A stretch of DNA of 64,000 nt. It comes from Fervidobacterium pennivorans. GTDB lineage: Bacteria; Thermotogota; Thermotogae; Thermotogales; Fervidobacteriaceae. Positions 1 to 48,910 of this stretch are shown in pieces. Positions within the stretch are counted from its first letter, which is position 1, and the number at the start of each line of letters is the position of its first letter. The position numbers and the translations under genes are program-made. The notes under the pieces are model-generated. The model worked only from the letters and a program-made list of their open reading frames with translations, made no database searches and was not told the origin of the DNA. Location of the stretch: contig NZ_CP011393.1 in NCBI RefSeq assembly GCF_001644665.1, positions 632,001-696,000 of the forward strand, in the 5' to 3' direction.

Positions 1-2331
1 AAGAGGGCTTGGCATTTGGAATCATCAGGAAATGAAGTGTCAGCTGCTGTTGCTTATCTAAAGTACGCAATGGAGCTTCTAAATTTTTACGCATCTCCAT
101 CAGTTATATACGCTGTGCTACAAAAAGCGAGAAAAATTCTTAAAAATCGAGAGTCTTACGCTTATTATAAATTCCTACTCGAACTTGCTGAACGAACAGA
201 AGACGAAAACTATATAAGAGACTTGGACATTCCGGATAAAAAGATATACGTCTATCTGAAATCGTTCAAATACTACTTAGTTTACGACTACAAGAACGCA
301 GTAGAACTTCTCAAAAATTCGCACGTCGAGCTTGGACCGTTTGGTAATTTGAAGCGTGAGTTTTTACTATTACGGTCCGAAGTGGGACAAGCTCCTGGAA
401 GAAAAGATTATTACGAAAGAGCAAAACGAATAATGGAACAACTTGACGAAAACAACCCGTTGCACGTGAGGCTTCTTATTGACATTTACATATTTATGTC
501 GGTTATAGCTCGTTCGAACCCATCAAAGGCTTTAGAGTACTTAAGAAAGGCTGAAAAGCTAGCACTTGATTGCAATGTTGCACATAAACTCCCATCGATT
601 TATAACAACATTGCTGTTGAGATTACAAACACCACTATTTCTATGCAGTACCTTGAACGAGCAGTAAAGGCTGCTGAAAACATTGGGTTGCCTGCTCGAA
701 GCTATTTATCAAGGTTAAACATACTTTCCCACGCACTTTATGCAGGTAAGATAGGAGAATTCATATCTGGTATTGCTGAATTAGAACCAAAACTTGAAAT
801 GTTAAACTTAAGAAATGAGATAATCTTTGCACAAACACTAGAGGCTTATTATCATAGTTATAATTTCGAAGTTGAAGAAGCTCTTCAACATATTGAGCGT
901 ATAAAAGAACGTTACGGGGTGGATAGTTCATTCGACATTTTTGCTGTTCACTTTATAACAAGAAACCTTCCTAAAGCAATGGAGTACAAACAAAGTGTCT
1001 TGAGTAGCGAGGAGTATGATGAAAACACAAAGGAGATTGTCGAGGTCATTTCTGCAGTCGGAACAGAGGAGTTTGCAATAAAATGGAAAAAGTATAGAGA
1101 TGCTGGTTCTAGGTATTTCAGGGAAGAAATAGTAGCAGTTTTGGGAAACGAATTGGCAAGAACTGTTCCTGAATTATTCAAAGAGGAACTTGAGTATCTC
1201 GAAACGAACTACGTGCTTGATGGAGCTTTGTTATCCTTGGCAATGGTGTACGAAGGATTTGGTCATTACTATAAAGCCCTCGGTAATGAATACAAATCAA
1301 AGTCATACTATTCTAAGGCGATAACTATTTATAAAGACATAGGACTTGAAAATGCTGCTAGAATGTTATGTGAACTCTACGGAGTCGAATTAGAAAAAGA
1401 CGAAAAAGAAAAGCATTCAAAACAACTGAGCACGCTTTCATATGATTTGCTCTCCAGTTTAAAAGCAATTGACCCGAAAACAGAGCCGGAGAAACTTTTA
1501 AATTACTTTGCCGCGAAAGTTTTGTCGCTGATACCAGCTAGAAGCCTTTTGCTTAGGCTTTACGATAAGGTTCTAGATAAAACATTCGAAACGAGCTTGG
1601 GAACAGCAGACAGAGAAAAACCAGTTAGAGAGACTTTAAGTGTGGCTCCATTGGAGCTATACGTTAACGATAAAATTGACAAGAACGCAACGTATGAACT
1701 TTGGCTTTCAAACCAAAATGTTCGATTTCCTGAAGAATACAAGAATGAGCTTTTACCAATCTTACAATTACTTGAGTATAGTTTCGTAGCAGTTATGAAG
1801 GGAACACTAACATGGCTAAGAAGCTTAATAGACCCTCTCACAAAACTCTATACGAGGTATCATTTCAGCGAAGTGTTGCAACATTACTTTGAAAAAGCTC
1901 AATCTGAGCAAGGGGAATTAAGTGTTGTTATGTGCGATATCGACAATTTCAAGAGGATAAACGATACATATGGTCACCTTACAGGTGACGCAGTCTTAAA
2001 GGAAGTGGCAAGAATATTGAGAGACAACGTGCGTTCAACAGATGTTGTAGGACGTTTTGGTGGCGAGGAATTCGTTTTACTCTTCCCGTCAACGGGTGAG
2101 GAAGAAGCAAAGACTGTTGTTGAAAGATTGAGAAGATTAACTAGGGATTTGAACAAATTCCCATTTAACATTACCCTTAGTTATGGAATAGCGGTTTATC
2201 CTGCATGCAAGGTCAACGATTCCGAAGAGTTGATACAAAAAGCGGATATTGCACTATACCATGCTAAGAACACAGGGAAAGACAAAATTGTTGTTTATAC
2301 GGAGGGAATGAGCGGTGGATTACACGCATGA
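1..2331 (+). CDS. TPR-GAF-GGDEF diguanylate cyclase (5' end may lie outside window)
   Basis: The frame is open to the left edge, so the N terminus may be outside; TTG at 16 is the first possible start inside. Numbering from that TTG, the first ~450 residues are helical TPR-like repeats, ~470-595 looks like a GAF fold, and ~605-765 is a GGDEF domain. The active loop reads GGEEF near residue 682 and an RSTD motif lies five residues before it, matching the RxxD inhibitory site of product-inhibited diguanylate cyclases. The family makes cyclic di-GMP from two GTP. No membrane segment is seen, so it is probably cytoplasmic, with the repeats sensing a ligand or partner. Its end overlaps murB by 17 bases. 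The input signal is unknown. Confidence 0.9.
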   Translation, partial: KRAWHLESSGNEVSAAVAYLKYAMELLNFYASPSVIYAVLQKARKILKNRESYAYYKFLLELAERTEDENYIRDLDIPDKKIYVYLKSFKYYLVYDYKNAVELLKNSHVELGPFGNLKREFLLLRSEVGQAPGRKDYYERAKRIMEQLDENNPLHVRLLIDIYIFMSVIARSNPSKALEYLRKAEKLALDCNVAHKLPSIYNNIAVEITNTTISMQYLERAVKAAENIGLPARSYLSRLNILSHALYAGKIGEFISGIAELEPKLEMLNLRNEIIFAQTLEAYYHSYNFEVEEALQHIERIKERYGVDSSFDIFAVHFITRNLPKAMEYKQSVLSSEEYDENTKEIVEVISAVGTEEFAIKWKKYRDAGSRYFREEIVAVLGNELARTVPELFKEELEYLETNYVLDGALLSLAMVYEGFGHYYKALGNEYKSKSYYSKAITIYKDIGLENAARMLCELYGVELEKDEKEKHSKQLSTLSYDLLSSLKAIDPKTEPEKLLNYFAAKVLSLIPARSLLLRLYDKVLDKTFETSLGTADREKPVRETLSVAPLELYVNDKIDKNATYELWLSNQNVRFPEEYKNELLPILQLLEYSFVAVMKGTLTWLRSLIDPLTKLYTRYHFSEVLQHYFEKAQSEQGELSVVMCDIDNFKRINDTYGHLTGDAVLKEVARILRDNVRSTDVVGRFGGEEFVLLFPSTGEEEAKTVVERLRRLTRDLNKFPFNITLSYGIAVYPACKVNDSEELIQKADIALYHAKNTGKDKIVVYTEGMSGGLHA

Positions 2332-3253
2332 TGCACTTAGCGAACAAATCAGGGGCTTTAACAGGAGGTTGGTTGAAAAACTTTGGGATTTAGGATGTGA
2401 TCTGTTTTTTAACGAACAGCTTTCACATCATGTTAGTTTTAGGCTTGGTGGAAGTGTTCCACTCTTCATAATTCCAAGTTCAATGGAAGGGTTTTTAGAT
2501 ACGTTAAGGCTTCTCAAAGAATATGAGGTCCCTTTCAGAATAATTGGTAAGGGAACGAATATAATTCCAACAGATGACGAAAAGGATTTTGCAGTTATCT
2601 CGACGGAAAGAATAGACTCCATAGAAATTCACGACGAATTGATTAACGTATCAGCTGGAATGTCATTCAAGACCCTTTGTTTAATAGCACTTGAACATTC
2701 ACTTTCAGGTTTGGAAAGGGCTTTTGGTTTGCCAGGTAGTGTTGGTGGAGCTGTCTACATGAACGCAGGTTGTTATGGTTGGGAAATGGCTCAAAACGTT
2801 GTTAGTCTCAAAGTGTTTGATGGAAAAAATGTTATAACCATAAGTCCTTCTGAGGCACAATTTGGTTACAGAGATAGTATATTCAAACACGAAAAATCTC
2901 TGATAATAATCTCAGCAGTTTTAAAACTAGCAAAAGGTAACAAGGAAAGTATCCGTGAAATAATGATTGATACCATGCGAAAACGTTACGAGAAGCAACC
3001 GTTAGAATATCCTAGTGCTGGTAGCGTTTTTAAAAGACCGAGGCCTGATTTTTACGTTGGGACAGCTATAGAATCTCTTGGTTTGAAGGGTTATCAAATA
3101 GGTGGTGCACAAGTTTCCGAAAAACACGCCGGGTTTATAATTAATAGGGGAAATGCAAAAGCCTCAGATGTTTTGAAATTGATTAACTTTATCAAAGGCA
3201 AAGTTAAAGAATATTACGGCGTGGAACTAGAAACAGAGGTCGAAATCTGGTAA
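2315..3253 (+). CDS. murB: UDP-N-acetylenolpyruvoylglucosamine reductase MurB
   Basis: MurB reduces UDP-GlcNAc-enolpyruvate to UDP-MurNAc with NADPH and FAD, the second committed step of peptidoglycan synthesis in the cytoplasm. The 312-residue protein shows the FAD-binding segment with GKGTNII and GLPGSVGGAVYMNAG, the substrate motif YRDSIFK, the serine proton donor in SAGSVFK, and the C-terminal GGAQVSEKHAGFIIN block. The short YRDS version and overall length fit type II MurB, as in Bacillus and Thermotoga. The GTG start at 2315 is supported by GGAGGG at 2301-2306; the start lies inside the end of the diguanylate cyclase gene, so the two are probably translationally coupled. Confidence 0.96.
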   Translation: MDYTHDALSEQIRGFNRRLVEKLWDLGCDLFFNEQLSHHVSFRLGGSVPLFIIPSSMEGFLDTLRLLKEYEVPFRIIGKGTNIIPTDDEKDFAVISTERIDSIEIHDELINVSAGMSFKTLCLIALEHSLSGLERAFGLPGSVGGAVYMNAGCYGWEMAQNVVSLKVFDGKNVITISPSEAQFGYRDSIFKHEKSLIIISAVLKLAKGNKESIREIMIDTMRKRYEKQPLEYPSAGSVFKRPRPDFYVGTAIESLGLKGYQIGGAQVSEKHAGFIINRGNAKASDVLKLINFIKGKVKEYYGVELETEVEIW

Positions 3254-3290
3254 ATTATATAAATCCTAAAAAACCTGGAGGTGGCTGAAA

Positions 3291-4634
3291 ATGGGACTGA
3301 ATGAACTAGTATGGAGAAAACGAACAAGGGAAGAGATTGAACATTTTTCCGATAGGTACAAGGAATTTATTGATTATGCTAAAACTGAGCGGTTAGCTAT
3401 CGAATATTTTGAAAAAATACTTTTGGAAAATGGATACATTCCTCTCGAAAAATACACAGGAAAGGAAAATAAAGTTTTCTACATAAATAGGGAAAAATCG
3501 CTGGTTGCAGTTAACGGAGAAATACTGAACGGTATTAATTTTGTTGCAGCACATGTCGATGCTCCAAGAATTGATTTGAGACCAAACCCATTGTATGAAG
3601 ATTCAGGGATAGCACTTGCGAAGACCCATTATTATGGTGGCGTTAAGAAATATCAATGGTTGAGTTTACCCCTGGCACTTGTAGGTGTTGTTGTAAAAGA
3701 AAACGGCGAAAAAATTAAAGTGTGCATAGGCTGTGAAGACAAAGACCCAGTTCTTGTTCTTCCCGATTTGCTCCCTCATCTGGATAAAGAAGACAAAAAG
3801 GTAAGTGAACAGTTCAAAGCAGAGAAAATGAACGTCATACTTGGTTCTATACCTTTAGAAGGTGAAGAAAAAGAACCGGTTAAGAAATACATCCTGAAGC
3901 TTTTGAAAGAGAAGTATAACATTGAAGAAGAAGACTTCATAAGCGCTGACTTAGAGCTTGTTCCCGCTTTGAAACCACGGGATGTGGGCATAGATAGCAG
4001 TTTTATTGGTGCATATGGTCACGATGATAGAATATGCGCTTTTGAGGGTGTTATGGCATTACTGAACGCACAACCAAAAAGTAAAGCTATAGGTGTTATT
4101 TTGTTTGACAGGGAAGAAATCGGTAGCGAAGGTGATGCAGGAGCTCAAGCAAGATTTTACAGAGCATTTTTGAGAAAGATGCTTTCTGTTAAGGGATTTA
4201 ATGATACCGAACAATTGCTAGATGAGATTATTGATAAGTCAACAGTTCTATCAGCTGATGTAACCGCCCTTTTTGACCCATCTTATCCGGATGTTCATGA
4301 TAAGCTCAATGTTGCTAAATCAGGTTACGGTGTTGCTATAGTAAAATACACTGGCAGAGGTGGAAAAGGTGGGGCAAGTGAAGCACATGCTGAACTGGTT
4401 GGCAAAGTAAGAGCTATACTCAATCGAAATGGTATCTCTTGGCAGGTTAGCCTCTTGGGTAAAGTTGACGTTGGTGGTGGCGGAACTGTTGCAAAGTTCC
4501 TTGCAAAAGAAGGATTTGATACAATTGATATAGGACCTGGGTTAATGAGCATGCACGCTCCCTTCGAACTAGTTTCAAAAGCGGACCTTTACGAAACTTA
4601 TCTCGCATTCAAAGTTCTTATGGAAGAGTTGTGA
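3291..4634 (+). CDS. apeA: M18 family aspartyl-type aminopeptidase
   Basis: This 447-residue protein is a zinc exopeptidase of family M18, which removes N-terminal acidic or neutral residues from peptides and forms large tetrahedral dodecamers. Seen motifs include AAHVDAPRIDLRP (metal-binding His and Asp), YGHDDRICAFEG, the catalytic/metal glutamates in DREEIGSEGDAG, and the C-terminal SMHAPFELVSKADLYETY with the final metal histidine. All metal ligands appear present and the length is normal, so the enzyme should be active in the cytoplasm. A GGAGGTGG site lies just before the ATG. It follows murB by 37 bases and is followed closely by the marR gene, suggesting one transcript. Substrate preference cannot be read from sequence. 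Confidence 0.93.
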   Translation: MGLNELVWRKRTREEIEHFSDRYKEFIDYAKTERLAIEYFEKILLENGYIPLEKYTGKENKVFYINREKSLVAVNGEILNGINFVAAHVDAPRIDLRPNPLYEDSGIALAKTHYYGGVKKYQWLSLPLALVGVVVKENGEKIKVCIGCEDKDPVLVLPDLLPHLDKEDKKVSEQFKAEKMNVILGSIPLEGEEKEPVKKYILKLLKEKYNIEEEDFISADLELVPALKPRDVGIDSSFIGAYGHDDRICAFEGVMALLNAQPKSKAIGVILFDREEIGSEGDAGAQARFYRAFLRKMLSVKGFNDTEQLLDEIIDKSTVLSADVTALFDPSYPDVHDKLNVAKSGYGVAIVKYTGRGGKGGASEAHAELVGKVRAILNRNGISWQVSLLGKVDVGGGGTVAKFLAKEGFDTIDIGPGLMSMHAPFELVSKADLYETYLAFKVLMEEL

Positions 4635-4651
4635 AAAACTGAGGTGGTTCG

Positions 4652-5116
4652 ATGTTCGGAGAAATAACTTATTCAGAGAGCGATTTGAAAAACGGGTTGC
4701 CTGCACACTTAGAACAATTGCTAAGGACCATATGTTTTAGAATACGAGTACACGGTCGTGAGGCTCTGAAGAACTACAGCATTACTGCAGCACAATTTGA
4801 CTTACTCCAAAGGGTCTATTTCAACGGTCCCCAGACGATGACGAAATTGAGTCAATCTTTAGGTATTGCAAAAAGTACAACTAGCGGCCTTGTTATGAGG
4901 CTTGTGAGGGATGGATTTTTAAATCGAAGAAGAGATGAAACGGATAGAAGAGTTTTTAAGGTAGAAATAACACCTCTTGGCGAACGAGTGATAAAAGCTG
5001 TTATAGAGATGCGAGTCAAATACATTGAAGAGGTTATCACGCAAATATCTGAGGATAAGACAAAGCTAATTCATGAGGCTTTAGACGCTCTTTACGAGGT
5101 TATAAGTTCTAAATAA
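4652..5116 (+). CDS. MarR family winged-helix regulator
   Basis: The 154-residue protein has the MarR layout: N-terminal dimerisation helix, then a winged helix-turn-helix with the recognition segment around MTKLSQSLGIAKSTTSGLVMRL, a wing with the conserved DETDRRVFKVEITPLGE stretch, and a C-terminal dimer helix. Members bind palindromic operators as dimers and release them on ligand binding. A GAGGTGG ribosome site precedes the ATG, 17 bases after the aminopeptidase stop. No clear operator is visible next to it, so its target is unknown. Local regulation of the envelope genes downstream is possible but unproven. Confidence 0.88.
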   Translation: MFGEITYSESDLKNGLPAHLEQLLRTICFRIRVHGREALKNYSITAAQFDLLQRVYFNGPQTMTKLSQSLGIAKSTTSGLVMRLVRDGFLNRRRDETDRRVFKVEITPLGERVIKAVIEMRVKYIEEVITQISEDKTKLIHEALDALYEVISSK

Positions 5117-5160
5117 TCTGAGATTCCGAAATTCTAAGTTCTAATAAGGGGCGAATCTCG

Positions 5161-6582
5161 TTGAGAGAAAATATGAAACTTGGAAGTTTGTTGAAGCTTG
5201 CTTTTCTACTAATAGCATTATTTTCAGACCTTGCTTTCTCGCTAACAGTTTACGCACCTAAAGGAAGTATGGTTTACTACAATGACAAATTTGTAGGGGT
5301 TGTGCAAAAAGACTCCATAAGTTTCAACGCAGAGTTTCCAGGAACTCTCAAGGTTGTAAAACCCGGTTTTGTGCCGTTTGAAAAAACTCTTACAGACGAT
5401 GCGACTGTAACCGTAGAACTCTCATTGCCATCATTCTTGAATCTAAAAGTAACTCCGAAAAATGCACGGGTTTTTGTCAATGGTCAATTGGTTGAGGTTG
5501 ATACTTTCAACGGTACCGCAAGACTTCAGATAAATTCTGGGGTTCACGAAATTAAAGCAGAAGCTCCGGGATATGCTACCAAAACTCTCAGAGTCGAAAT
5601 CAACCCGTATGAAGAAAAAGATTTGGAAATAACACTGAAAAGAACGGTAACATTGAAATTGGTTTCTGAAAAAAACATCGACAATGCTATCTTAGGCGGC
5701 ATGCTAATAAACTTACCTTCAACGATAGAGGTAGAGCCGGGTAAATACAAACTTTATTTACCAAATATCTTTTTGAAGAGCATTCAAGAAATTGAGGTAC
5801 CGTTTCTTGATGAATATGTGTACAAAGTCGACTCTACCCAGATGTTTAAATTGATAATTGATGGAAGCCCTGCTGGAGCTTATGCTTGGATATCAGGTCA
5901 AATTTGGAAACTTCCAACAACGATAGTACTACCGGAGAATAGTTATGATATTCGAATATTCTCCCAAAACTATGAAGATTATGAAACAAAGGTTGAGTTA
6001 AGGAAAGACACGAAGATTTTCTATAATCTGAAACCTAAATTGGAGGTAAGCCAAAGAACAGTTAACAACAACTATGTTATTGAGTATGATGGATATGTAA
6101 GGGACAGAGTGGTTGTCAAACCGTGGTTTACGACGATAAAAGATAATGCGGGAAATATAGTGTGGTATGGTTTCAGCGATGGAAGTCTTAAAAACCTGCC
6201 TAAGACCGTTCCTATCTTGATAAGTAAAGATATGATTTGCATGGTAGGAACTACGATATTCAAAGGACCCACGATTTTACAGGTGGCGTCAGGCACTAAT
6301 ATTCTCGTTTTCGACAATAGAAGAGCTAAGAGCGAAGAAAGGATACAAGTGGAAGGGCCCACAGTGATTGACACTGAGGACAGGGTTTTGGTGAATGTAT
6401 ATTCAAAAGATGTCTGTGAAGTTTACTGGGATGATGAATTTATAGGGAATACCCCGATATATTTCTTTGTCACATCAGCAGGTAAGCACAAGTTAACTTT
6501 TGTACGAAATGGTTTAAAGGTTAACGAACAAATTGTTGATGCAAAGCAAGGACAGCTCAACGAATTTCGCCAATCGTTTTGA
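5161..6582 (+). CDS. Exported PEGA-domain repeat protein
   Basis: The 473-residue protein starts with a signal peptide (hydrophobic core ~11-27, LAFS before the mature part). The body is a series of ~70-residue beta-rich repeats of the PEGA type: short elements such as VYAPKGSMVYYNDKFVG and VTPKNARVFVNGQ resemble the classic carrier of the PEGA motif in surface proteins. These domains usually sit outside the membrane in S-layer or envelope proteins and have no known catalysis. TTG at 5161 is preferred because AAGGGG at 5145-5150 is correctly spaced, while the ATG at 5173 would be too far. The next gene encodes an SLH/coiled-coil envelope protein, so a role in the toga or periplasm is likely. 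Confidence 0.75.
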   Translation: MRENMKLGSLLKLAFLLIALFSDLAFSLTVYAPKGSMVYYNDKFVGVVQKDSISFNAEFPGTLKVVKPGFVPFEKTLTDDATVTVELSLPSFLNLKVTPKNARVFVNGQLVEVDTFNGTARLQINSGVHEIKAEAPGYATKTLRVEINPYEEKDLEITLKRTVTLKLVSEKNIDNAILGGMLINLPSTIEVEPGKYKLYLPNIFLKSIQEIEVPFLDEYVYKVDSTQMFKLIIDGSPAGAYAWISGQIWKLPTTIVLPENSYDIRIFSQNYEDYETKVELRKDTKIFYNLKPKLEVSQRTVNNNYVIEYDGYVRDRVVVKPWFTTIKDNAGNIVWYGFSDGSLKNLPKTVPILISKDMICMVGTTIFKGPTILQVASGTNILVFDNRRAKSEERIQVEGPTVIDTEDRVLVNVYSKDVCEVYWDDEFIGNTPIYFFVTSAGKHKLTFVRNGLKVNEQIVDAKQGQLNEFRQSF

Positions 6583-6618
6583 AATATCATTTCCAGACCA
6601 CAACGTGAGGTGAAGGGC

Positions 6619-7893
6619 ATGAGTTATGTTTTCTATCGGTTGTTAAAATATCGAGGTATCATCCCTCTTTTCCTAATTTCCATTAGCATCTATGTTTTTT
6701 CTGCCACAATAAAAGACCTTTCTCCATCCGCAGCTGAATATAAAGCTGTGAATTTCCTTGTAGAACAAAGGATTATGGATGTAGATGCCAATGGAAACTT
6801 TAAACCTTCTTTGCTTATAACGAAATTGGACCTTGCACGCTATTTGTATGCAATTATAGATAGATATAATTTAACAAGTTTACAAAGTACCAAATCTGAT
6901 GATTTGGTAAAGCTTGAATCAAGGATTACTACATTGGAAAGGCAGATATCTAGTATTCCTTCCAGTCAGTTTCAAAGTGCTTCGGCTTTACAAAGTGAAT
7001 TGAATGATTTAAAAAGAAGGCTTTTAGCAGTTGAAAGTAAAGTTACGAACCTTGAAAATAAAAGTACTGATTCTTCAAAGGACCAGCAAACAATTACCTC
7101 ACTACAGAGTGAACTTTCGGCACTAAATAAAAGAGTTACTGCTGTTGAAAATAAAATTTCAGCACTTTCCCAATCAAAAGATTTTACTAAAGACATAGCG
7201 CAATTGACAGCTCAAATAAATAGTTTAGAAGCGAGACTAAATGAATACGCTCAACTTAAGTATTACGGTGATGAAATTGAAAAACTTAAAGCAAGGGCAA
7301 CAGATTTAGAAAAAAAGGTTAACCACGCAACAAATACTATTAATTCACTATCAGAAAAAGTTTCCAAACTAGAAGCAGGTACTTCGGAAGATATTAAGAA
7401 TTTGCAGAATTTAACTTTGGCGAATATAAACGATTTGAGAAATCAGGTATTAGCGGAAATTGAGAAATTAAAGTCTCGAATTGGAACTATTGAGGAAGTT
7501 TTGGGAAAAGGGCAAGACTTTTTACAACGTTTAGAAGCCTTGGATGCTTTGACAATAATCAATACATTCTCTAACTTGGAAGTACTTTCCAACCGATTTG
7601 ACCAACTTGAAGCAAGATTCAAAAAGCTTGAAGATGGTCTTTCACAAGTGGTCTTGGAGCAAAAATATATTCTAGACAAACTTGTCATTTCTCAGAATTC
7701 TGAGGAAAAGATAGACTCTTTAGAGCAAAAAGTTTCTCAACTTGAATCTTCTAATACAACTAATAACGAGAACTTGAAAAAACTTTCATCGCAAGTAGAG
7801 AACTTAAACAGTCAATTGATGACTATGCGAACAATAACTTACATTAGTTTGTTAGTTGCCATAGTCGCAGGAATTCTTGTACTTCTCAAATGA
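6619..7893 (+). CDS. SLH / coiled-coil / membrane-anchor envelope protein (Omp-alpha-like)
   Basis: Residues ~1-27 form a signal sequence, ~30-90 resemble an S-layer homology domain (DLSPSAAEYKAVNFLVEQRI, then a conserved second half), ~95-400 are heptad-rich coiled coil with repeated LESRITTLE-like units, and the last ~20 residues are a hydrophobic anchor ending in LVLLK. That order matches T. maritima Omp-alpha, the rod that spans the periplasm and tethers the outer toga. The ATG at 6619 is chosen because GAGG at 6607-6610 lies eight bases before it; the GTG at 6610 overlaps that site. It lies directly downstream of the PEGA protein. Function is inferred from layout, not from residue identity. 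Confidence 0.78.
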   Translation: MSYVFYRLLKYRGIIPLFLISISIYVFSATIKDLSPSAAEYKAVNFLVEQRIMDVDANGNFKPSLLITKLDLARYLYAIIDRYNLTSLQSTKSDDLVKLESRITTLERQISSIPSSQFQSASALQSELNDLKRRLLAVESKVTNLENKSTDSSKDQQTITSLQSELSALNKRVTAVENKISALSQSKDFTKDIAQLTAQINSLEARLNEYAQLKYYGDEIEKLKARATDLEKKVNHATNTINSLSEKVSKLEAGTSEDIKNLQNLTLANINDLRNQVLAEIEKLKSRIGTIEEVLGKGQDFLQRLEALDALTIINTFSNLEVLSNRFDQLEARFKKLEDGLSQVVLEQKYILDKLVISQNSEEKIDSLEQKVSQLESSNTTNNENLKKLSSQVENLNSQLMTMRTITYISLLVAIVAGILVLLK

Positions 7894-7923
7894 ATGTAGA
7901 ATAACCAGAAAGGAATTGTGATT

Positions 7924-8706
7924 ATGGTTGGACTTGCTCTTCAAGCCGGAGGCGTAAAGGGATTTTCGCATATCGCAACACTGAAAGTTTTTGAAGAATG
8001 CAACGTCAAACCTGATGTTATTTCAGGTTCATCGGCAGGTTCTATTGTTGGTGCGTTATATGCATTACATGGCAGTTCAGAAATTGCTTACAAGGTCTTT
8101 GCTGAAACAGTTCGTAAATTTCTCAAAAAACAAAGAACAAAACCTGAGCCAATAATGAATTTAGAGATGGTTATAAAAGATGCTCTTTACAGCCTGGATG
8201 AGTTCTACCAGTTTTTCAAAGAAATGTTTGGTAAGAAAAAATTTTCAGAGATAAAGACCAAACTTTTAGTCGTAGCTTTCGATATTGAAACTTGGAAGAG
8301 TTTCGTTATAGATGAAGGTTATCTTGTCGATGCGGTTCTAGCAAGTTGCACTGTTCCCGGAGTGTTTGAGCCTACGTACATTGCGGGTGCTCGAATGCTT
8401 GATGGTGGTGTTTTATCACCAATTCCTACTTTTGAATTAAAAGACTACGGGGCTGATACCATAGTAGCTAGCGCTTTTGAAGAACTAATACCACCGTACG
8501 CAACACATACGGAACTCATGCTTACCGTAGATGCAGTTAAAGAGTCGTACATTGTGCAAAACGAACTCAGTGAAGCGGATTTCACATTTTTTTATCCCGT
8601 AAGTGTTAACTGGCAGGATTTTGCTAAATACGAAGAAGTTTATAAAAATGCTTTAATTGTTGCAAGGAGAGTGAAGGATGAGTTTGAGAATTTCATTAGG
8701 CGGTGA
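7924..8706 (+). CDS. Patatin-like phospholipase
   Basis: The protein carries the complete patatin catalytic set: a glycine-rich oxyanion loop (QAGGVKGFSH near the N terminus), the GxSxG nucleophile elbow in SGSSAGSIVGAL, and the catalytic aspartate in LDGGVLSP. Patatin-like enzymes hydrolyse phospholipids or other acyl esters with a Ser-Asp dyad. There is no signal peptide or anchor. ATG 7924 is preferred over GTG 7918 because AGGA at 7911-7914 is too close to the GTG. The 3' end overlaps the next gene, a degenerate relative, by 29 bases, so the two are probably made together. Substrate and cellular target are unknown. Confidence 0.87.
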   Translation: MVGLALQAGGVKGFSHIATLKVFEECNVKPDVISGSSAGSIVGALYALHGSSEIAYKVFAETVRKFLKKQRTKPEPIMNLEMVIKDALYSLDEFYQFFKEMFGKKKFSEIKTKLLVVAFDIETWKSFVIDEGYLVDAVLASCTVPGVFEPTYIAGARMLDGGVLSPIPTFELKDYGADTIVASAFEELIPPYATHTELMLTVDAVKESYIVQNELSEADFTFFYPVSVNWQDFAKYEEVYKNALIVARRVKDEFENFIRR

Positions 8707-15577: not shown

Positions 15578-16846
15578 TTGAGCGAAGGTATCAGCATGAA
15601 ACAACTTGAAGAAATGACAATGAAAGAATTGTATGAGCTAGCGAGAAAATACGACATTCCAAGATATACTAGTATGAGGAAACAGGATTTAATATTCGAA
15701 ATTCTCGAAGCGAAAGCAAAAGCTGAAGGATACTTTTTTGGAGAAGGTGTACTTGAAATAGCCCCGGATGGCTATGGCTTTTTGAGAAGTTTGGAAACGA
15801 TGCTTTCAGGACCAAAAGACATATATGTTTCACAGTCGCAAATTCGAAAATTTAATCTGAATACCGGAGACATTGTTTCTGGTGTTATCCGTCCTCCAAA
15901 AGAGGGTGAACGTTTCAACGCAATGATTAAGATTGAAGCAATAAATTATAAACCACCAGAATTTGCCAACGAACGTGTCAATTTTGAAAACCTTACTCCA
16001 GATTATCCAAAAGAGCGATATATACTTGAAACCAAACCTGACGTTTTCTCTACAAGGCTTATAGATTTATTTGCTCCAATAGGAAAAGGGCAACGAGGTA
16101 TGATTGTTGCACCACCAAAAGCTGGGAAAACAACAATCCTTAAAGAGATTGCGAATGGAATTGCGGAAAATCATCCGGATACATTCAGAATAGTTTTGCT
16201 AATTGATGAAAGACCGGAAGAGGTAACCGATATTAAAGAATCTGTTGATGCAAAAGTAATTGCCGCTCCCTTTGATATGCCATCTGAAAAGCAAATAAAA
16301 ATAGCTGAATTAACATTGGAAATGTGTAAGCGACTTGTGGAGTACGGCAATCACGTTGTTGTGCTTTTGGATAGTTTGACAAGGCTTGCAAGAGTCTACA
16401 ATGTAACGGTACCACCGAGTGGGAAATTATTAACTGGTGGTGTTGACCCTGCTGCGCTTCATAAACCTAAGCAATTCTTCGGAGCTGCCCGTAACACTCG
16501 TGAGGGTGGAAGTTTGACCATAATAGCAACCGCACTTGTTGAAACCGGTTCAAAAATGGACGAAGTAATATTCGAAGAATTCAAAGGAACAGGTAACATG
16601 GAGCTGGTTTTGTCAAGACAACTTGCAAACAAAAGGATATTCCCAGCAATTAACATTACACTTTCTGGAACTAGAAGAGAGGAACTGCTCATTGAGCAGT
16701 CCAACCTTAAGAAAATCTGGTTATTGAGACGTATGCTTGATTCCATGAGCGAAGAAGAAGGTCTGAAATTACTTCTAAACAAGCTTAAAGATACGAAAAC
16801 AAATGCAGAATTCTTAGCACTCATAGATGCTCAAAAAAATGTTTAG
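15578..16846 (+). CDS. rho: Transcription termination factor Rho (intact copy)
   Basis: Rho is a hexameric RNA helicase that ends transcription at untranslated C-rich RNA. The 422-residue protein has the N-terminal helix bundle (MTMKELYELARKYDIP), the cold-shock-like primary RNA-binding domain, Walker A in APPKAGKTT, Walker B in [12 protein letters not shown], and the Q/R-loop region [23 protein letters not shown] 15578 follows AGGAGGTGG at 15562-15570 with normal spacing. A second, 5'-truncated and closely similar rho lies at 48101-48910 beside an IS110 element; this copy is the complete one. Confidence 0.96.
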   Translation: MSEGISMKQLEEMTMKELYELARKYDIPRYTSMRKQDLIFEILEAKAKAEGYFFGEGVLEIAPDGYGFLRSLETMLSGPKDIYVSQSQIRKFNLNTGDIVSGVIRPPKEGERFNAMIKIEAINYKPPEFANERVNFENLTPDYPKERYILETKPDVFSTRLIDLFAPIGKGQRGMIVAPPKAGKTTILKEIANGIAENHPDTFRIVLLIDERPEEVTDIKESVDAKVIAAPFDMPSEKQIKIAELTLEMCKRLVEYGNHVVVLLDSLTRLARVYNVTVPPSGKLLTGGVDPAALHKPKQFFGAARNTREGGSLTIIATALVETGSKMDEVIFEEFKGTGNMELVLSRQLANKRIFPAINITLSGTRREELLIEQSNLKKIWLLRRMLDSMSEEEGLKLLLNKLKDTKTNAEFLALIDAQKNV

Positions 16847-40863: not shown

Positions 40864-41458
40864 ACACGTCGTTATAGACTTTCGAGTTGATGAGATCGAT
40901 TTCGATGTGGTCAACGTGGATAACGTAACCGGTGGTTATCTGGCTATGAAATATCTTTACGACCACGGACACAGAGATATATTGTTTATCCCTGGTCCTG
41001 AGTTATCTCCAGCAGCGCAAGACAGGGAAAAAGGTATTCGCAAGTTCCTCGATAAAATATCAAAGAAAGATGAAGTAAAGGTGTACCTTGGTGAACACCG
41101 TGGGTACGACTCCGAGCATGGATGGGTTAGTGTAACACAACATCTAAACAAATACGGATTGAACTTCACCGCAATATTTGCCGTAAACGATTGGGCGGCT
41201 CTTGGCGCAATAGATGCACTGAAAGATTACGGTATAAAGGTACCTGACGAAGTATCGATAATAGGTTTCGACGATGCACCGTTTGCACAATACACAAACC
41301 CGAGATTAACAACTGTGATGCAACCACGCTGGGAGATGGGCACAACCGCAGCACAACTTTTGATAGAACGTATCCTTGACAAACATCTCAGATTACCAAG
41401 AAACGTTATATTACCCACAAAAATAATCGAACGAGAATCTGTGAAAAAGATAATGTGA
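40864..41458 (+). pseudogene. LacI-family regulator, C-terminal fragment cut by IS21
   Basis: The open frame starts HVVIDFRVDEIDFDVVNVDN without a start codon and covers about 198 residues of the periplasmic-binding-like effector domain, with DHGHRDILFIPGP, AAQDREKGIRKFL, FAVNDWAALGAIDALKDYG and VSIIGFDDAPFAQYTNPRLTT. The DNA-binding helix-turn-helix and hinge are missing and are not found elsewhere in the window. This was probably a sugar-responsive repressor. An ATG at about 40943 would give only part of the effector domain. Confidence 0.85.
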
Positions 41459-41471
41459 TCATATGAAAACA

Positions 41472-41521
41472 AAACCATCCCCGGAAAGATTGTTTGATAG
41501 TCTCTGGGGATGGTTTATTTT
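41472..41521 (+). terminator. Terminator after the LacI fragment
   Basis: AAACCATCCCC (41472-41482) pairs with GGGGATGGTTT (41506-41516), followed by ATTTTT. It is placed between convergent genes and may also affect the minus-strand ABC operon that ends at 41532. Confidence 0.85.
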
Positions 41522-41531
41522 TGCAAACATT

Positions 41532-42347
41532 TTAAAACCCATGTACTCCTTTTTGGCGTGCTTTGTGTTGGAGTATAACGTAACTCAAGTAACCAGCGAT
41601 AATATAGAGAAAAGATATCACTGTGAAAATCATAAACTCACTTTTCAAATCAAAAATCGTTTTTGTACCCATCAGAAAATGTCTTGATAAATCTAAGCCC
41701 CACGTAAAAGGAAAGACGTACGAAACGTAACGTAAGAACTTCGGTAATACGGTCACTGGAAAGAACATCCCACCTATCAAAGGTGCAGCGTTTCCTACCA
41801 AGCTTACCAGTTCATCGGCGTCCTTTAAAAGTAACGTTAACCCAAAGAAAAGGAAGACAAATCCGAACGATGCAATAATGGAAATAACAAATGAACATAT
41901 AAAAAGTAACAAGTTTAGTGGTTTTATTGTCAATAAATTGCTCAAAAGTGCAAGTATTAATATAGGTACAGATTCTATGGTTACTCTTGAAATGCCGAAC
42001 ACACTCCAAGATAGAATGTACTCAAGTCCGCTCACTGGTGTTAAGAAAATTTCTTCAAATTGTCCTATTCTCATGTAACGTCTCAATGTGAAGATTACTC
42101 CCCACAGAATTTCAACGTAATTCCAGTAGGCAGCACCAAGCGCAAGGTAACCGAAGATATTCGTTGTATTCGATGTCCCATAGAAAAACTTTACGATATT
42201 CGATTTACTACCAAGATAGTACAAGAATAATAACGGAATTATTGTGAGCAATGGCACGAAGAACGAACCGTAAAAATCTATCTTGTACCTTTTAGCCGAA
42301 AGAAATTGTGCTTTAATCAAGTACAAACCTCTTACCATTCTTCCCAT
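41532..42347 (-). CDS. ABC-2 type permease, second copy, of the peptide cluster
   Basis: The 271-residue protein has six membrane helices in the ABC-2 (DrrB/NodJ) layout, with MGRMVRGLYLIKAQFLSAKRY at the cytoplasmic N terminus and a central YILSWSVFGISRVTIESVPI helix. It would form a heterodimer with the 42332 permease and use the 43117 ATPase to export a substrate. It overlaps the preceding gene by 16 bases and ends the operon. In context with the peptide and maturase genes, export of the modified peptide, or immunity to it, is the most economical role. Confidence 0.82.
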   Translation of the reverse strand: MGRMVRGLYLIKAQFLSAKRYKIDFYGSFFVPLLTIIPLLFLYYLGSKSNIVKFFYGTSNTTNIFGYLALGAAYWNYVEILWGVIFTLRRYMRIGQFEEIFLTPVSGLEYILSWSVFGISRVTIESVPILILALLSNLLTIKPLNLLLFICSFVISIIASFGFVFLFFGLTLLLKDADELVSLVGNAAPLIGGMFFPVTVLPKFLRYVSYVFPFTWGLDLSRHFLMGTKTIFDLKSEFMIFTVISFLYIIAGYLSYVILQHKARQKGVHGF

Positions 42348-43120
42348 TCTCCTTTTTGCCTTATCAAGTGTTCTGCTTTTTTCAACATCGCAACACCGAC
42401 AACAAGATACACTACACTAATGATACTCACTGTAAGTAAATTAAAGAAAAACTTCGTAACATCGTTGGAGTTTAAGATTACCCTTCCAGCTTCGATTAAA
42501 TACGTTAATGGCAGTAAGTAACTTGCTATACGAATATAGAACGGGAAATTGCTAACAGGATTTACCATACCAGATAGAAGACCTATTCCGTACTGAATCG
42601 AATAATTTAAAGTTCCGATGCGTTTGTACAGAAGATTCAAACCAGCAAAAAATATCGAAAAGAAAGTAATATAAAGCCCACTCACAAGTAACAATAAAAA
42701 GAAATAGAACGATAAATAAATATCTATGCCAAGCAACCAAAAAAACAAGAGTGTGAAAAGTGTTATGTACAAATTCATAATGAATGTATCAATTGCTTTT
42801 GAAAATAAAAATGCAACTGTGGAAATCGGTGATAAAACAATTGTTACAAGTGTTCCTTCCATACGTTCTTCCGAAAAGCCATCACCAACACCGAAAAAGT
42901 ATTGATTCAACCAATACCAAAGGAGTGTACCAATAAGTATGTTGTTTACTATATCTTGCTGAGTTGTTATCTTTGCACTGAAAACGTACGGTGCAATCAT
43001 AAAAAATGGAGTGAGCGCCATATTTATCCAGACAAATTTGTACTTCCTACGCACTTTCAAGTCTTTCATCGCTAAGATAAACACACTTTTTAAAGTATCC
43101 AGCACGTTCTTCACCTTCAT
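42332..43120 (-). CDS. ABC-2 type permease, first copy, of the peptide cluster
   Basis: The 262-residue integral membrane protein has about six helices and the ABC-2 pattern (ILIGTLLWYWLNQYFFGVGDGF, then FSEERMEGTLVTIVLSP, where the EGTL-type coupling segment is conserved). It starts ATG 43120 overlapping the ATPase stop as ATGA, so translation is coupled. It is a paralogue of the next permease only at the fold level. Role as in the neighbour: half of an exporter pore for the peptide product. Confidence 0.82.
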   Translation of the reverse strand: MKVKNVLDTLKSVFILAMKDLKVRRKYKFVWINMALTPFFMIAPYVFSAKITTQQDIVNNILIGTLLWYWLNQYFFGVGDGFSEERMEGTLVTIVLSPISTVAFLFSKAIDTFIMNLYITLFTLLFFWLLGIDIYLSFYFFLLLLVSGLYITFFSIFFAGLNLLYKRIGTLNYSIQYGIGLLSGMVNPVSNFPFYIRIASYLLPLTYLIEAGRVILNSNDVTKFFFNLLTVSIISVVYLVVGVAMLKKAEHLIRQKGEWEEW

Positions 43121-43854
43121 TCGTTTTCAGCATATTCGGAAGATTGCAAAAAGAGTTCAGAAAGCTGGTTGTAAACATCTTTACTTGCGAAAATATCACC
43201 GTACCTTGAAATAAGCTCAATTTTTCCATTTTTCAGAAGTACTATCTTTGCATCCTCACTCAAATTGTGCAGTATGTGACTTACCATAACGACAGTCACA
43301 CCATCTTTGCTCGACTTTTCTAAAAAAGAATTAACCTGAATGACGGCGTTAACATCGAGACCATTCAAAATCTCATCTATGAAGAGAATCTTTGGTTGAT
43401 GAATTAAAGCTTTACAAAGTAACAATTTCTTACGCATTCCAGTTGAATAATCTTCAACGAGCTTATCTTTGTCATCGTATAAACCAAAAAAGTTAAGTAA
43501 CTCTTCGGCACGTTCTATTCGCTTCTTTTTTGGAACATTGTAAATTCCACCGAATATGTCAAGGTTTTCCCAAGCCGTTAGCTTCCAATATAAACTTCTT
43601 TCGTTAGCAAGCACAACACCGATATACCTTGCGAGTTTTTTCCAGTGCTTTTTTACGTCAAAACCTAAGATGTTCACTTCACCTTCATCTGGTAAAAGTA
43701 AACCTACCATGATTCGCAAAAGCGTACTCTTACCAGCGCCGTTTGGACCTACCAATACGGTGAATTCACCTTCTGAAATGTTCAAACTTACATTTTCAAG
43801 CACTCTTTGGTCTCCAAAGGATTTACTAACACCTTTCAATAAAACAAGACTCAA
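43117..43854 (-). CDS. ABC transporter ATPase of the peptide cluster
   Basis: The 245-residue nucleotide-binding domain has Walker A GPNGAGKSTLL, a Q-loop region, the signature YSTGMRKKL (an LSGGQ variant typical of DrrA/CcmA-like exporters), Walker B ILFIDEIL and the H-loop VSHILH. No peptidase domain is fused, so it cannot itself cleave a leader. TTG 43854 overlaps the maturase stop as TTGA. It energises the two ABC-2 permeases that follow. Confidence 0.9.
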   Translation of the reverse strand: MSLVLLKGVSKSFGDQRVLENVSLNISEGEFTVLVGPNGAGKSTLLRIMVGLLLPDEGEVNILGFDVKKHWKKLARYIGVVLANERSLYWKLTAWENLDIFGGIYNVPKKKRIERAEELLNFFGLYDDKDKLVEDYSTGMRKKLLLCKALIHQPKILFIDEILNGLDVNAVIQVNSFLEKSSKDGVTVVMVSHILHNLSEDAKIVLLKNGKIELISRYGDIFASKDVYNQLSELFLQSSEYAENE

Positions 43855-45098
43855 GGAACGATCACCCTTTCTTGATTTAATACATATAATTCAATTAAAT
43901 CTGAACTATACAATGTTTCTAAAAATTCTTTCCAACAATCTTTCGGAGTTTGCTTTAAAAATGAGTTGTATTTACAGCCACCATCACAAATTGGAAGAAA
44001 AGTACAACTCATACAAGTTTTATCATGAGAAATGGATTCTAAGAAATTAGCATATTTTTTAATGAATATCTCTTCGTTAGACATTATCTCTTCGTAATTT
44101 GCGATTTTGAAATTACTTACTCCAATTCCAGAAATACAATTGTATACATCACCATTCGGAGCTAAGACAAGGTCGGATTCTTTTTTGTATGTGCAAGGCC
44201 AAACATTTAGAAAATCGATGATCCTAAAGCCAAAATTAATCACAGATTTGACTGCTTCAACGTATTTTTCGGCGTACTCTTTTTGACAAATATTGATTCC
44301 TTTTAATGATAATCCACCATTTTCTGGATTCGTTAATAAACCAATATTAAAAATAACCCTTTCTGATAATACTTTCACTCCGAATATCTCAACGAGCTCG
44401 TCTAGCATCTTCTTGTAATAAAAATTAGAGTTTGTCTCATCTAAAACGGTATGAATCACCACAGTTGAATTTGAATAACAAAATATTTTACTCATGTTAT
44501 CCATTATTCTGTCCCAACTACTTGCCCCATCTTTTCGTGGACGTCTTGCATTATGGAGCTCTCTTGGACCATCTAATGTCAACTGAATAACTCCAAATTT
44601 TCTGTGGTTTAATATTGAAAACAAATCATCAAAAACAAAATTTCCATTTGATATTATATTAAACTGTTTAAACTTTTCTTCAGATTCAATTTGTTCAAGA
44701 ACCTGCTGCAAATAATCAATTTTTAGCGAAGGTTCCCCGCCAAAAAATGTAATAATAAATGATTTTGGATTGAAGATACTGAGAAGTTTTCTGTAAAGTT
44801 CCACTTTCTTCACAGTTTCAATTTCCAGTTGGGTTTTGTCTATTTTTGGTCCATTTTGCATGCAATATACACAACTTAAATTACAATCATAGGTAATTGC
44901 ATCTGTTATTGACAAAGTATCGTTTGAATATTTTATCTTATTATTAATATAATTCATTAATGCAATTCTTTCATCTGAATCATAACTTTCGAATTTTGTG
45001 TTCAATGAGTTCTTATTTACTATCTTAATTTCACGCATTAAAAGATCATAATATATTATCTTATCATATTTATCAATTTTTACAACAAATCTACTCAT
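43851..45098 (-). CDS. Radical SAM/SPASM peptide maturase
   Basis: The 415-residue protein has the radical SAM cluster motif CNLSCVYC (Cys 72, 76, 79), FFGGEPSL in the SAM-binding part, TLDGPRELHNARRP, and a C-terminal SPASM domain with cysteines in CISG, CMSCTFLPICDGGC and CW, which hold auxiliary 4Fe-4S clusters. This layout is characteristic of enzymes that modify ribosomal peptides by thioether, C-C or other radical links. The N-terminal ~60 residues may be a peptide-binding RRE-like part. A 32-codon peptide gene is 108 bases upstream. GGAGG at 45110-45106 marks the start. Confidence 0.9.
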   Translation of the reverse strand: MSRFVVKIDKYDKIIYYDLLMREIKIVNKNSLNTKFESYDSDERIALMNYINNKIKYSNDTLSITDAITYDCNLSCVYCMQNGPKIDKTQLEIETVKKVELYRKLLSIFNPKSFIITFFGGEPSLKIDYLQQVLEQIESEEKFKQFNIISNGNFVFDDLFSILNHRKFGVIQLTLDGPRELHNARRPRKDGASSWDRIMDNMSKIFCYSNSTVVIHTVLDETNSNFYYKKMLDELVEIFGVKVLSERVIFNIGLLTNPENGGLSLKGINICQKEYAEKYVEAVKSVINFGFRIIDFLNVWPCTYKKESDLVLAPNGDVYNCISGIGVSNFKIANYEEIMSNEEIFIKKYANFLESISHDKTCMSCTFLPICDGGCKYNSFLKQTPKDCWKEFLETLYSSDLIELYVLNQERVIVP

Positions 45099-45117
45099 TT
45101 CGGTTCCTCCCTATTTC

Positions 45118-45187
45118 GAATTTCAGTTATTTATTCTGAAATTCAAGTCTTCTAATTCGATCCAATAAAATATTAGACCCGGGTCTA
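45118..45187 (-). promoter_or_regulatory. Two hairpins between peptide and maturase genes
   Basis: GAATTTCAG (45118-45126) pairs with CTGAAATTC (45136-45144) around nine bases, just before the maturase ribosome site. TAGACCCGGGTCTA (45174-45187) is a perfect palindrome soon after the peptide stop. In peptide-maturase operons such elements often reduce downstream expression so that peptide is made in excess; here that is an inference. Confidence 0.5.
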
Positions 45188-45206
45188 GTAACATTAAACC
45201 ATTAGG

Positions 45207-45305
45207 TTATTTTTTACTAATCTCAATGCTCGCACATCTTTGACTTCTATTTATACAACCACCAAGTGGAACATTACCATTGATTAATCTTTTCAAAATA
45301 TTCAT
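45207..45305 (-). CDS. Candidate RiPP precursor peptide (32 residues)
   Basis: A complete small frame is read on the minus strand, with AAGGAGG at 45319-45313 and ATG at 45305. The peptide has a basic amphipathic start (MNILKRLING), a Gly-Gly at 15-16, Cys17 and Cys24 (GGCINRSQRC), and the tail ASIEISKK. Length, a Gly-Gly before the first Cys, and two cysteines six residues apart fit a leader plus a 16-residue core. The gene is first in the operon with a radical SAM/SPASM enzyme. The modification type cannot be stated; a Cys-based thioether is one option. I recall that T. maritima has a comparable peptide-rSAM-ABC locus around TM1316, which should be compared. Confidence 0.78.
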   Translation of the reverse strand: MNILKRLINGNVPLGGCINRSQRCASIEISKK

Positions 45306-45349
45306 CTGTTATACCTCCTTGTAAGAATCAATAATTTTTAACACGATTT

Positions 45350-45407
45350 ACTCTGCGCAGAGTTATTTTAATTATATCAAAAAAAAAAAAAAAAAAAAAA
45401 AAGTCAA
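45350..45407 (-). promoter_or_regulatory. Promoter of the peptide cluster with a 24-T spacer run and start-site palindrome
   Basis: On the minus strand, TTGACT (45407-45402) and TATAAT (45376-45371) are separated by 25 bases, nearly all T (24 T in total at 45402-45379). The normal spacing is 17, so loss of about eight T would give a consensus promoter. Just beyond the -10, ACTCTGCGCAGAGT at 45363-45350 is a perfect 14-base palindrome at the expected start point, a good operator position. No other promoter for the operon is seen. Confidence 0.65.
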
Positions 45408-45462
45408 TACTGTAACACCATATTCGTTGAATAGAAATAAAATCACCTATAAGATATAAAAA

Positions 45463-45497
45463 ATCCCCCGACGAAGTTAAATGTGTTTCCGGGGGAT
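45463..45497 (-). terminator. Terminator of the nfnAB operon
   Basis: On the minus strand ATCCCCCG (45497-45490) pairs with CGGGGGAT (45470-45463), followed by six T. It separates the nfn operon from the peptide cluster promoter. Confidence 0.88.
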
Positions 45498-45510
45498 GTT
45501 CATTTCTCAA

Positions 45511-45783
45511 TTACTTTTGCCTTTGAAATTTTTCCGCACTGATGGTGACGATGTATTTGTTGCCATCAACTTCAACTTGGTAATTTATCGAAAAAGTATC
45601 AGGTAGGTTTTTCAAAACCGTGTCATCGATCGTTTCCCAAAAGATATTTTCCGCTTTTAATTGGGCTTTCTCTTGCCTTAGTGCTTCTTCAAGCATGTTT
45701 CTTTGCATGGGGATAGTTGATAAGACTATTGCAACGAGTATTAGAAGAACAATTATCGCAGATAGTATTTCGATGTAAATCAC
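45511..45783 (-). CDS. Small single-span membrane protein, pilin-like N terminus
   Basis: The 90-residue protein starts MIYIEILSAIIVLLILVAIVLST, a hydrophobic helix with a Glu at position 5, which recalls the mature start of type IV pilin-like proteins, although no prepilin leader or cleavage glycine is present. The remaining ~60 residues are soluble with VDGNKYIVTISAEKF at the end. GTG 45783 has AAGGTG upstream and follows nfnB by 13 bases, so it is in the same transcript. No family is recognised. Confidence 0.6.
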   Translation of the reverse strand: MIYIEILSAIIVLLILVAIVLSTIPMQRNMLEEALRQEKAQLKAENIFWETIDDTVLKNLPDTFSINYQVEVDGNKYIVTISAEKFQRQK

Positions 45784-45796
45784 ATCATCTTCACCT

Positions 45797-48054
<2,258 letters not shown>

Positions 48055-48100
48055 TGATAATTCCTCCTATACTTAGGTGAGCAAAGAAAAAAATGTATTG

Positions 48101-48910
48101 TTATACTGTTTTCTGGGCGTCTATTAAAGCTAAGAACTCTTCGTTCGATTTCGTTTCTTTCAATTTTGAAAGTATGAGTTTGAGACCTTCTTCTTCAGAC
48201 ATAGAGCTCAACATACGCCTAAGGATCCACACTTTCTTCAATTCGTTTTGCCCAATCAATAATTCTTCTTTTCTTGTACCCGAAAGTGCAAGATTGATGG
48301 CTGGGAAAATCCTTTTGTTAGCAAGCTGTCTTGAAAGCACAAGTTCCATATTACCTGTACCTTTGAATTCTTCAAATATCACTTCATCCATCTTCGATCC
48401 AGTCTCTATGAGTGCGGTTGCGATGATGGTTAAACTTCCACCTTCTCTTGTGTTTCTTGCAGCACCGAAGAAATGTTTGGGTTTGTAAAGTGCAGCCGGA
48501 TCAACACCACCAGTCAACAGTTTACCACTTGGTGGAACGGTTATGTTATAAACCCTTCCAAGTCGTGTAAGACTATCAAGGAGCACAACAACGTGATTTC
48601 CATATTCAACAAGTCTTTTGCACATTTCAAGCGTAAGTTCAGCAATTTTTATCTGCTTATCGGAAGGCATATCAAACGGGGCTGCTATAACCTTTGCATC
48701 TACCGATTCTTTGATATCTGTAACTTCTTCAGGTCGTTCATCGATGAGTAATACGATTCTAATTGTATCAGGATGGTTAGTTGCAATTCCGTTGGCAATT
48801 TCTTTGAGTATCGTGGTCTTACCGGTCTTCGGTGGAGCGACGATCATTCCCCTTTGTCCTTTACCTATCGGTGTGAACAAGTCAATCAACCTTTGGTGGT
48901 AAACCTTTCT
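48101..48910 (-). pseudogene. Second rho gene, 5'-truncated beside IS110
   Basis: The C-terminal ~265 residues of Rho are intact and almost identical to the copy at 15578, including [22 protein letters not shown] and [15 protein letters not shown]. The frame is open upstream to [19 protein letters not shown], then the IS110 end begins around 48911-48928. The N-terminal RNA-binding domain is missing and is not seen on the far side of the element. A TTG at 48889 could start a fragment with ATPase but no primary RNA site. Differences such as A to T and R to K show that it diverged before truncation. Confidence 0.88.

Follow-up and report, generated by a model that had tools for sequence, protein, structure and literature searches.

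A probable TM1316-type RiPP operon of Fervidobacterium pennivorans with relatives in Bacillota, an apparently recent transfer and a candidate length-variable promoter

In Bacillus subtilis, SkfA, SkfB and SkfEF combine a short precursor, one SPASM-type maturase and an ABC ATPase plus permease, and the product, the sporulation killing factor, carries one thioether and one disulfide. Other chemistry is known from related SPASM enzymes, namely C-C bond formation, epimerisation and decarboxylation. In Thermotoga maritima, the TM1316 peptide is reportedly encoded by one of the most strongly induced genes in stationary phase and is said to have been followed with antibodies raised against the unmodified synthetic peptide; we know of no structure or function for it. 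TM1316 is the subject of Frock et al. 2013 (AEM 79:6637).

The window, a 64,000-nt stretch of the F. pennivorans genome, carries on its minus strand, in this order, a 32-aa peptide gene, a radical SAM/SPASM enzyme gene, an ABC ATPase gene and two ABC-2 permease genes, with the following parts:

45314-45320, minus strand: ribosome binding site AAGGAGG, 8 nt 5' of the peptide ATG (from sequence)
45207-45305, minus strand: precursor peptide gene, 32 aa, MNILKRLINGNVPLGGCINRSQRCASIEISKK, kept beside the maturase in 11 genomes; pN/pS of the window peptide against other lineages 0.20-0.30
45118-45187, minus strand: intergenic stretch separating the peptide and maturase genes; contains palindrome TAGACCCGGGTCTA (45174-45187) and, at 45118-45144, a hairpin of 9-11 bp; folding z -2.4
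43851-45098, minus strand: radical SAM/SPASM peptide maturase, 415 aa (Pfam/NCBIfam, Cys sets, structure matches, tree)
43117-43854, minus strand: ABC transporter ATPase, 245 aa, without a peptidase domain (ABC_tran)
42332-43120, minus strand: ABC-2 permease 1, 262 aa (PF01061)
41532-42347, minus strand: ABC-2 permease 2, 271 aa (PF01061)

This is the five-gene layout given in the preliminary description: every frame was found in its place and orientation, and Pfam and NCBIfam searches returned the domains it had named (Radical_SAM, SPASM, ABC_tran and two ABC2_membrane proteins). The frames of the maturase, the ATPase and both permeases overlap by 4-16 nt. The ribosome site that had been called strong is the AAGGAGG listed above, and equivalents (AAAGGAGG, AAAGGGGGG) are present in most relatives. 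Likewise, no leader peptidase had been visible, and none is fused to the ATPase or encoded beside the operon. Hairpins between peptide and maturase genes were also detected in loci L068 (z -2.1) and L080 (z -4.7); in L071 and L079 folding against shuffled sequences gave no significant hairpin at this position. Hairpins are common 3' of RiPP precursor genes, and the one in the window would allow more peptide than enzyme to be made.

A similar T. maritima locus in the TM1316 area had been mentioned in the preliminary description, and this is borne out by L069, which we take to be the locus of T. maritima MSB8 and which holds an operon of orthologous genes with HicA/HicB genes beside it. Given these neighbours, the layout and the presumed identity of the genome, the L069 operon is very probably TM1316. 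A review of HicAB systems places a T. maritima hicAB pair under the reference Frock et al. 2013. The window and T. maritima operons share an orthologous peptide and the five-gene order, with identities of 62% for the peptide, 42% for the maturase, 59% for the ATPase and 60-64% for both permeases. They differ in that the window peptide has a tail 3 aa longer, the window maturase has an N-terminus shorter than that of T. maritima, as also of the other relatives, and the poly-T promoter and the location on a recently transferred block belong to the window copy; the T. maritima copy has a decayed neighbour gene upstream. The operon itself is thus of a known kind, the TM1316 type. What is new is the core motif, shared with relatives in Bacillota, together with the promoter run of variable length and the recent transfer.

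The precursor peptide contains Gly15-Gly16 directly before Cys17, and Cys24 with six residues between the two Cys, as first described. The 16-residue two-cysteine core proposed on this basis can be refined: conservation runs from Pro13-Leu14 to Ala25, beyond which the C-terminal tail varies, and one relative lacks the second Cys. Seventeen residues are invariant in the peptide alignment, among them PLGGC-x-NRSQRCA, and the N-terminus (MN-I/V-LKR) is conserved as well. Judging from its sequence evolution the frame is translated and under purifying selection, because pN/pS between lineages was 0.06-0.33.

Among 151 genomes, drawn from the class and from outside it, the identical 11 held the peptide (E < 1e-8) and the full-length maturase (E < 1e-100), an agreement with a chance of 6e-17 if the genomes were independent, which they are not. 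The locus therefore shows one feature of a RiPP system of the radical SAM/SPASM type: a short precursor gene lies next to the gene of a modifying enzyme and is conserved together with it. The order peptide, maturase, ATPase, permease, permease was found in the Thermotogota families f1, f3, f8 and f9 wherever contigs were complete enough (the L066 contig stops at the maturase). Conservation, pN/pS and co-occurrence with the maturase rule out a chance ORF. Since five sibling species of the same genus have neither peptide nor maturase, the distribution of the system is patchy.

The maturase, 42-46% identical across the relatives from the 11 genomes, has the radical SAM motif CX3CX2C at Cys72/76/79 and seven SPASM cysteines (302, 321, 362, 365, 371, 375, 388), all of them invariant in six relatives, and matched the SPASM model TIGR04085 with 51.6 bits (cut-off 27). 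Its nearest curated families are all peptide maturases (CefB, Clo7bot, geopeptide and PapB-type). CefB (153 bits) and Clo7bot (CtpM; 124 bits) were the best NCBIfam matches, but both scores are far below the cut-offs of 600; the PapB-type model NF047865 gave 88.5 bits against a cut-off of 340 and the SCIFF maturase model TIGR03974 83 bits against 425. With scores this far under the cut-offs, membership in the CefB, Clo7bot, geopeptide, PapB and SCIFF families was ruled out, and the maturases of the clade as a whole score under every curated NCBIfam maturase-family cut-off. Nor does the enzyme group with anaerobic sulfatase maturases, which the preliminary description had named as a refuting outcome: TIGR03942 has a cut-off of 349 and gave 78 bits. 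An anSME-like or other non-peptide enzyme is excluded by the NCBIfam scores, the tree and the conservation of the partner peptide.

Among solved structures CteB is nearest, both by sequence (E 1.5e-20) and by fold, the fold search having used an AlphaFold model of moderate quality (pLDDT 67). The N-terminal regions of both AlphaFold models are mostly below pLDDT 50, too weak for a test of an RRE. Despite the closeness of the enzymes the substrates are unlike: SCIFF has six Cys in 45 residues, the window peptide two. Clo7bot precursors, at the one locus examined, are Cys-rich and multi-copy, whereas the window precursor is single and has two Cys. The Skf system resembles the window operon in composition, but the sequence relation of SkfB to the window maturase is remote (E 1.7e-10) and the window operon has no thioredoxin or protease genes.

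Relatives outside Thermotogota came from an alignment-based search: a single-sequence search of wider genome contigs found none, whereas the maturase profile retrieved relatives in Ezakiella, Fenollaria, an Erysipelotrichaceae MAG and a Clostridiales MAG (28-31% identity). Directly upstream of each Bacillota maturase lies a short frame (MISRVRKFLRNQQTIYSGCTCRSQRCTS, ...IYGGCTCRSQRCAN, MCEFIEIVVDDGEMDYACTIRTQRA and MISRLKRIRAGGFAECSGCVSGGQRCLNLS...), encoding precursors of only 25-28 aa. The peptides of Thermotogota and of the four Bacillota share the motif C-[TIV]-x-[RG]-[STG]-Q-R-[CA], which first-order random upstream sequence produced in 0-2 of 5000 trials. In the motif scan of the loci examined, no such peptide was found directly upstream of other SPASM maturases, and all maturases linked to the motif fall into one clade of a quick tree (support 97). 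Peptide conservation beside homologous maturases, whose absence would have counted against the preliminary description by its own terms, thus extends from the 11 genomes to these Bacillota. Gly-Gly is mostly not kept in the Bacillota peptides, which do not support it as a predicted cleavage site. No relative has lost Cys17, but the L080 peptide has Ala in place of the second Cys; because of this replacement Cys17 appears the likelier thioether donor of the two. The L080 exporter also consists of an ATPase and two ABC-2 permeases (27-37% identity), and those of L078, L079 and L081 are pairs of full-length ABC proteins. Viral contigs yielded only remote radical SAM relatives (22-33%), none with a motif peptide, and on plasmids the matches were confined to remote enzymes, Clo7bot-like ones among them. 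When the classes to which the Bacillota hosts belong were sampled more widely, a broken copy in G585 was the one additional close member.

We consider it likely that the locus, as the orthologue of the T. maritima TM1316 locus, is a RiPP operon in which a thioether would be formed from Cys17 and the product exported, and whose transcription probably starts at a promoter with a spacer of variable length. That the peptide is a RiPP is supported by its strict co-occurrence with the maturase, by their adjacency in two phyla and by the single clade of the maturases. The radical SAM/SPASM enzyme would bind the conserved N-terminus of the peptide as a leader and would most likely link Cys17 by a thioether to one of the residues in the conserved C-x-N-R-S-Q-R segment; Cys24 would be a second donor or would take part in a disulfide. 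Cleavage, if any, would be carried out by a protease encoded elsewhere, and the modified peptide would leave the cell through the ATPase/ABC-2 permease complex. Analogy with CteB makes thioether chemistry the most likely, and a bond from Cys to C-alpha, or to C-beta or C-gamma, would make the product a sactipeptide or ranthipeptide; leader recognition, any cleavage and export we infer.

All relatives have in common only C-x-x-[RG]-[STG]-Q-R, so that Cys17 is no better conserved than Gln and Arg; L080 lacks Cys24, and SkfB and EpeE are among the structural matches of the maturase model. These observations would suit a RiPP whose maturase makes a different change, such as a C-C crosslink, an epimerisation or an oxidation at Arg, Gln or Ser, with Cys forming a disulfide or serving otherwise. 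We regard this as rather unlikely, given that no relative lacks Cys17 and that CteB, the nearest solved structure, is a thioether-forming maturase. It is highly improbable that the peptide stays unmodified, as a small envelope or signal peptide, while the SPASM enzyme acts on something else: the missing leader peptidase, the short and basic peptide and the unmodified synthetic peptide to which TM1316 antibodies were reportedly raised would agree with such a role, but strict co-occurrence and adjacency in two phyla with one shared maturase clade argue against it.

Returning to the thioether-forming RiPP operon that we favour, its promoter upstream of the peptide gene has the layout TTGACT - poly-T - GA - TATAAT:

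45402-45407, minus strand: -35 hexamer TTGACT (from sequence)
45379-45402, minus strand: poly-T run T24 filling the -35/-10 spacer (from length comparison of copies)
45371-45376, minus strand: -10 hexamer TATAAT (from sequence)
45351-45362, no strand assigned: palindrome CTCTGCGCAGAG immediately 3' of the -10 and 5' of the peptide ribosome binding site (from sequence)

The length of the tract between -35 and -10 varies between close copies: T24 in the window, T19 in G006, T17 in G007 and T12 in both G004 copies, which gives spacers of 25, 20, 18 and 13 nt, respectively. The rest of the 8-kb block around the operon differs by 1-2 substitutions; the two G004 copies additionally carry single-base insertions, and at 44752 one of these disrupts the maturase frame. 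T24 is the longest such run in the 2.06-Mb genome, where just a single further T/A run has 13 or more, and none of the other long runs examined in these genomes lies in such a promoter. This layout is that of known spacer-length phase-variable promoters (Bordetella fim, Neisseria), and the poly-T spacer is by its sequence a candidate phase-variable promoter. The 18-nt spacer would be near the optimum and those of 13, 20 and 25 nt weak or off, so that slippage in the run might let operon output vary between cells. This reading is based on five tract lengths from four genomes, and long homopolymers are prone to assembly error. Indeed, runs above 12 are mutable and hard to assemble, and relatives in other genera have no poly-T run, which is confined to this lineage; that the run is a neutral homopolymer or an assembly artefact and no switch, an objection to the promoter part only, is a real possibility, if not the one we prefer. 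Against it, the run sits exactly between a near-perfect -35 and a perfect -10, has hardly a counterpart of comparable length in the genome, and differs in length in every species while the flanking 8 kb are almost invariant.

At a place similar to that of the palindrome 3' of the -10, L065, L066, L068 and L071 have palindromes whose sequence differs from lineage to lineage (CCAACCGGTTGG, CAGCCGGCTG, GCCTCGCGAGGC). By their sequence these palindromes may be operators or 5' hairpins; because the region in the window folds no better than shuffled sequences, we make no claim for it at the RNA level.

The operon and its promoter are part of a larger segment:

40867-48905, no strand assigned: block shared with three other species at 99.8-99.9% identity; holds the operon, a 90-aa ORF, nfnAB-like genes, a rho fragment and a lacI fragment

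Outside this block (window 2000-8000) identity is 88% to G004, 71% to G006 and 70% to G007. Because the block is nearly identical while this second region is only 70-88% identical, the operon appears to lie on a block recently transferred between species; the diverged region also rules out that the four matching genomes are near-identical strains. G006 and G007 share 18.5 kb at 99.9%. All four genomes hold, besides the block copies, a second, diverged rho (76-77%), which in G006 falls within a 73% match spanning rho and nfnAB, and diverged nfnAB-like genes (69-73%), and the block is therefore seen as an extra, recently acquired piece. In the window a transposase gene with an rve domain, IS21-like in its layout, cuts the block off at its left end and an IS110-family element does so at its right end; in the other three genomes the rho fragment has serine recombinase genes next to it. 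Transfer linked to transposases has been reported for Fervidobacterium (PMC5398504). The other rho match of the window genome is at 16076-16838, the rho fragment of the block being a second, foreign one. The 90-aa ORF (45511-45783), between peptide and nfnAB, has a hydrophobic N-terminus and no Pfam match. G004 has two peptide copies (L063 9416-10664; L064 8609-8707), one beside the maturase broken by a one-base insertion, the other followed directly by a transposase gene and lacking a maturase.

SPASM peptide-maturase loci in Thermotogota (L067 10623-12053 and 4466-5890; L071 534-2102; L175; L176) have beside them members of a family of proteins, about 475-540 aa long, that matched nothing in Pfam, NCBIfam or the PDB. 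The L067 copy is divergent from the TM1316-type peptide, a match in L065 is divergent and close upstream, T. maritima retains a decayed remnant (L069, about 7415-7684), and the genome of the window has none. The family could be a peptide sensor or regulator. In two lineages the TM1316-type operon has a further neighbour, a SPASM maturase of a different kind accompanied by full-length ABC proteins (L077 1735-3018 / L071 2780-7233; L067 850-3692).

Searching the full text of open-access papers for the combination of phase variation in such a thermophilic phylum with a RiPP operon returned nothing relevant. We put forward with more doubt than conviction the wider proposal of a cross-phylum RiPP family recognised by its core, C-[TIV]-x-R-[ST]-Q-R. 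One ring would be closed inside this heptapeptide, the second Cys would be optional, and in Fervidobacterium-like bacteria the family would have become a mobile, phase-variable trait acting at the population level through its poly-T promoter. With the Bacillota relatives and the conserved core, small substrates are at hand and the important residues are indicated. Should the run prove to be a true switch, it would provide an example of phase variation in a deep-branching phylum of thermophiles, and of a RiPP operon controlled in this way.
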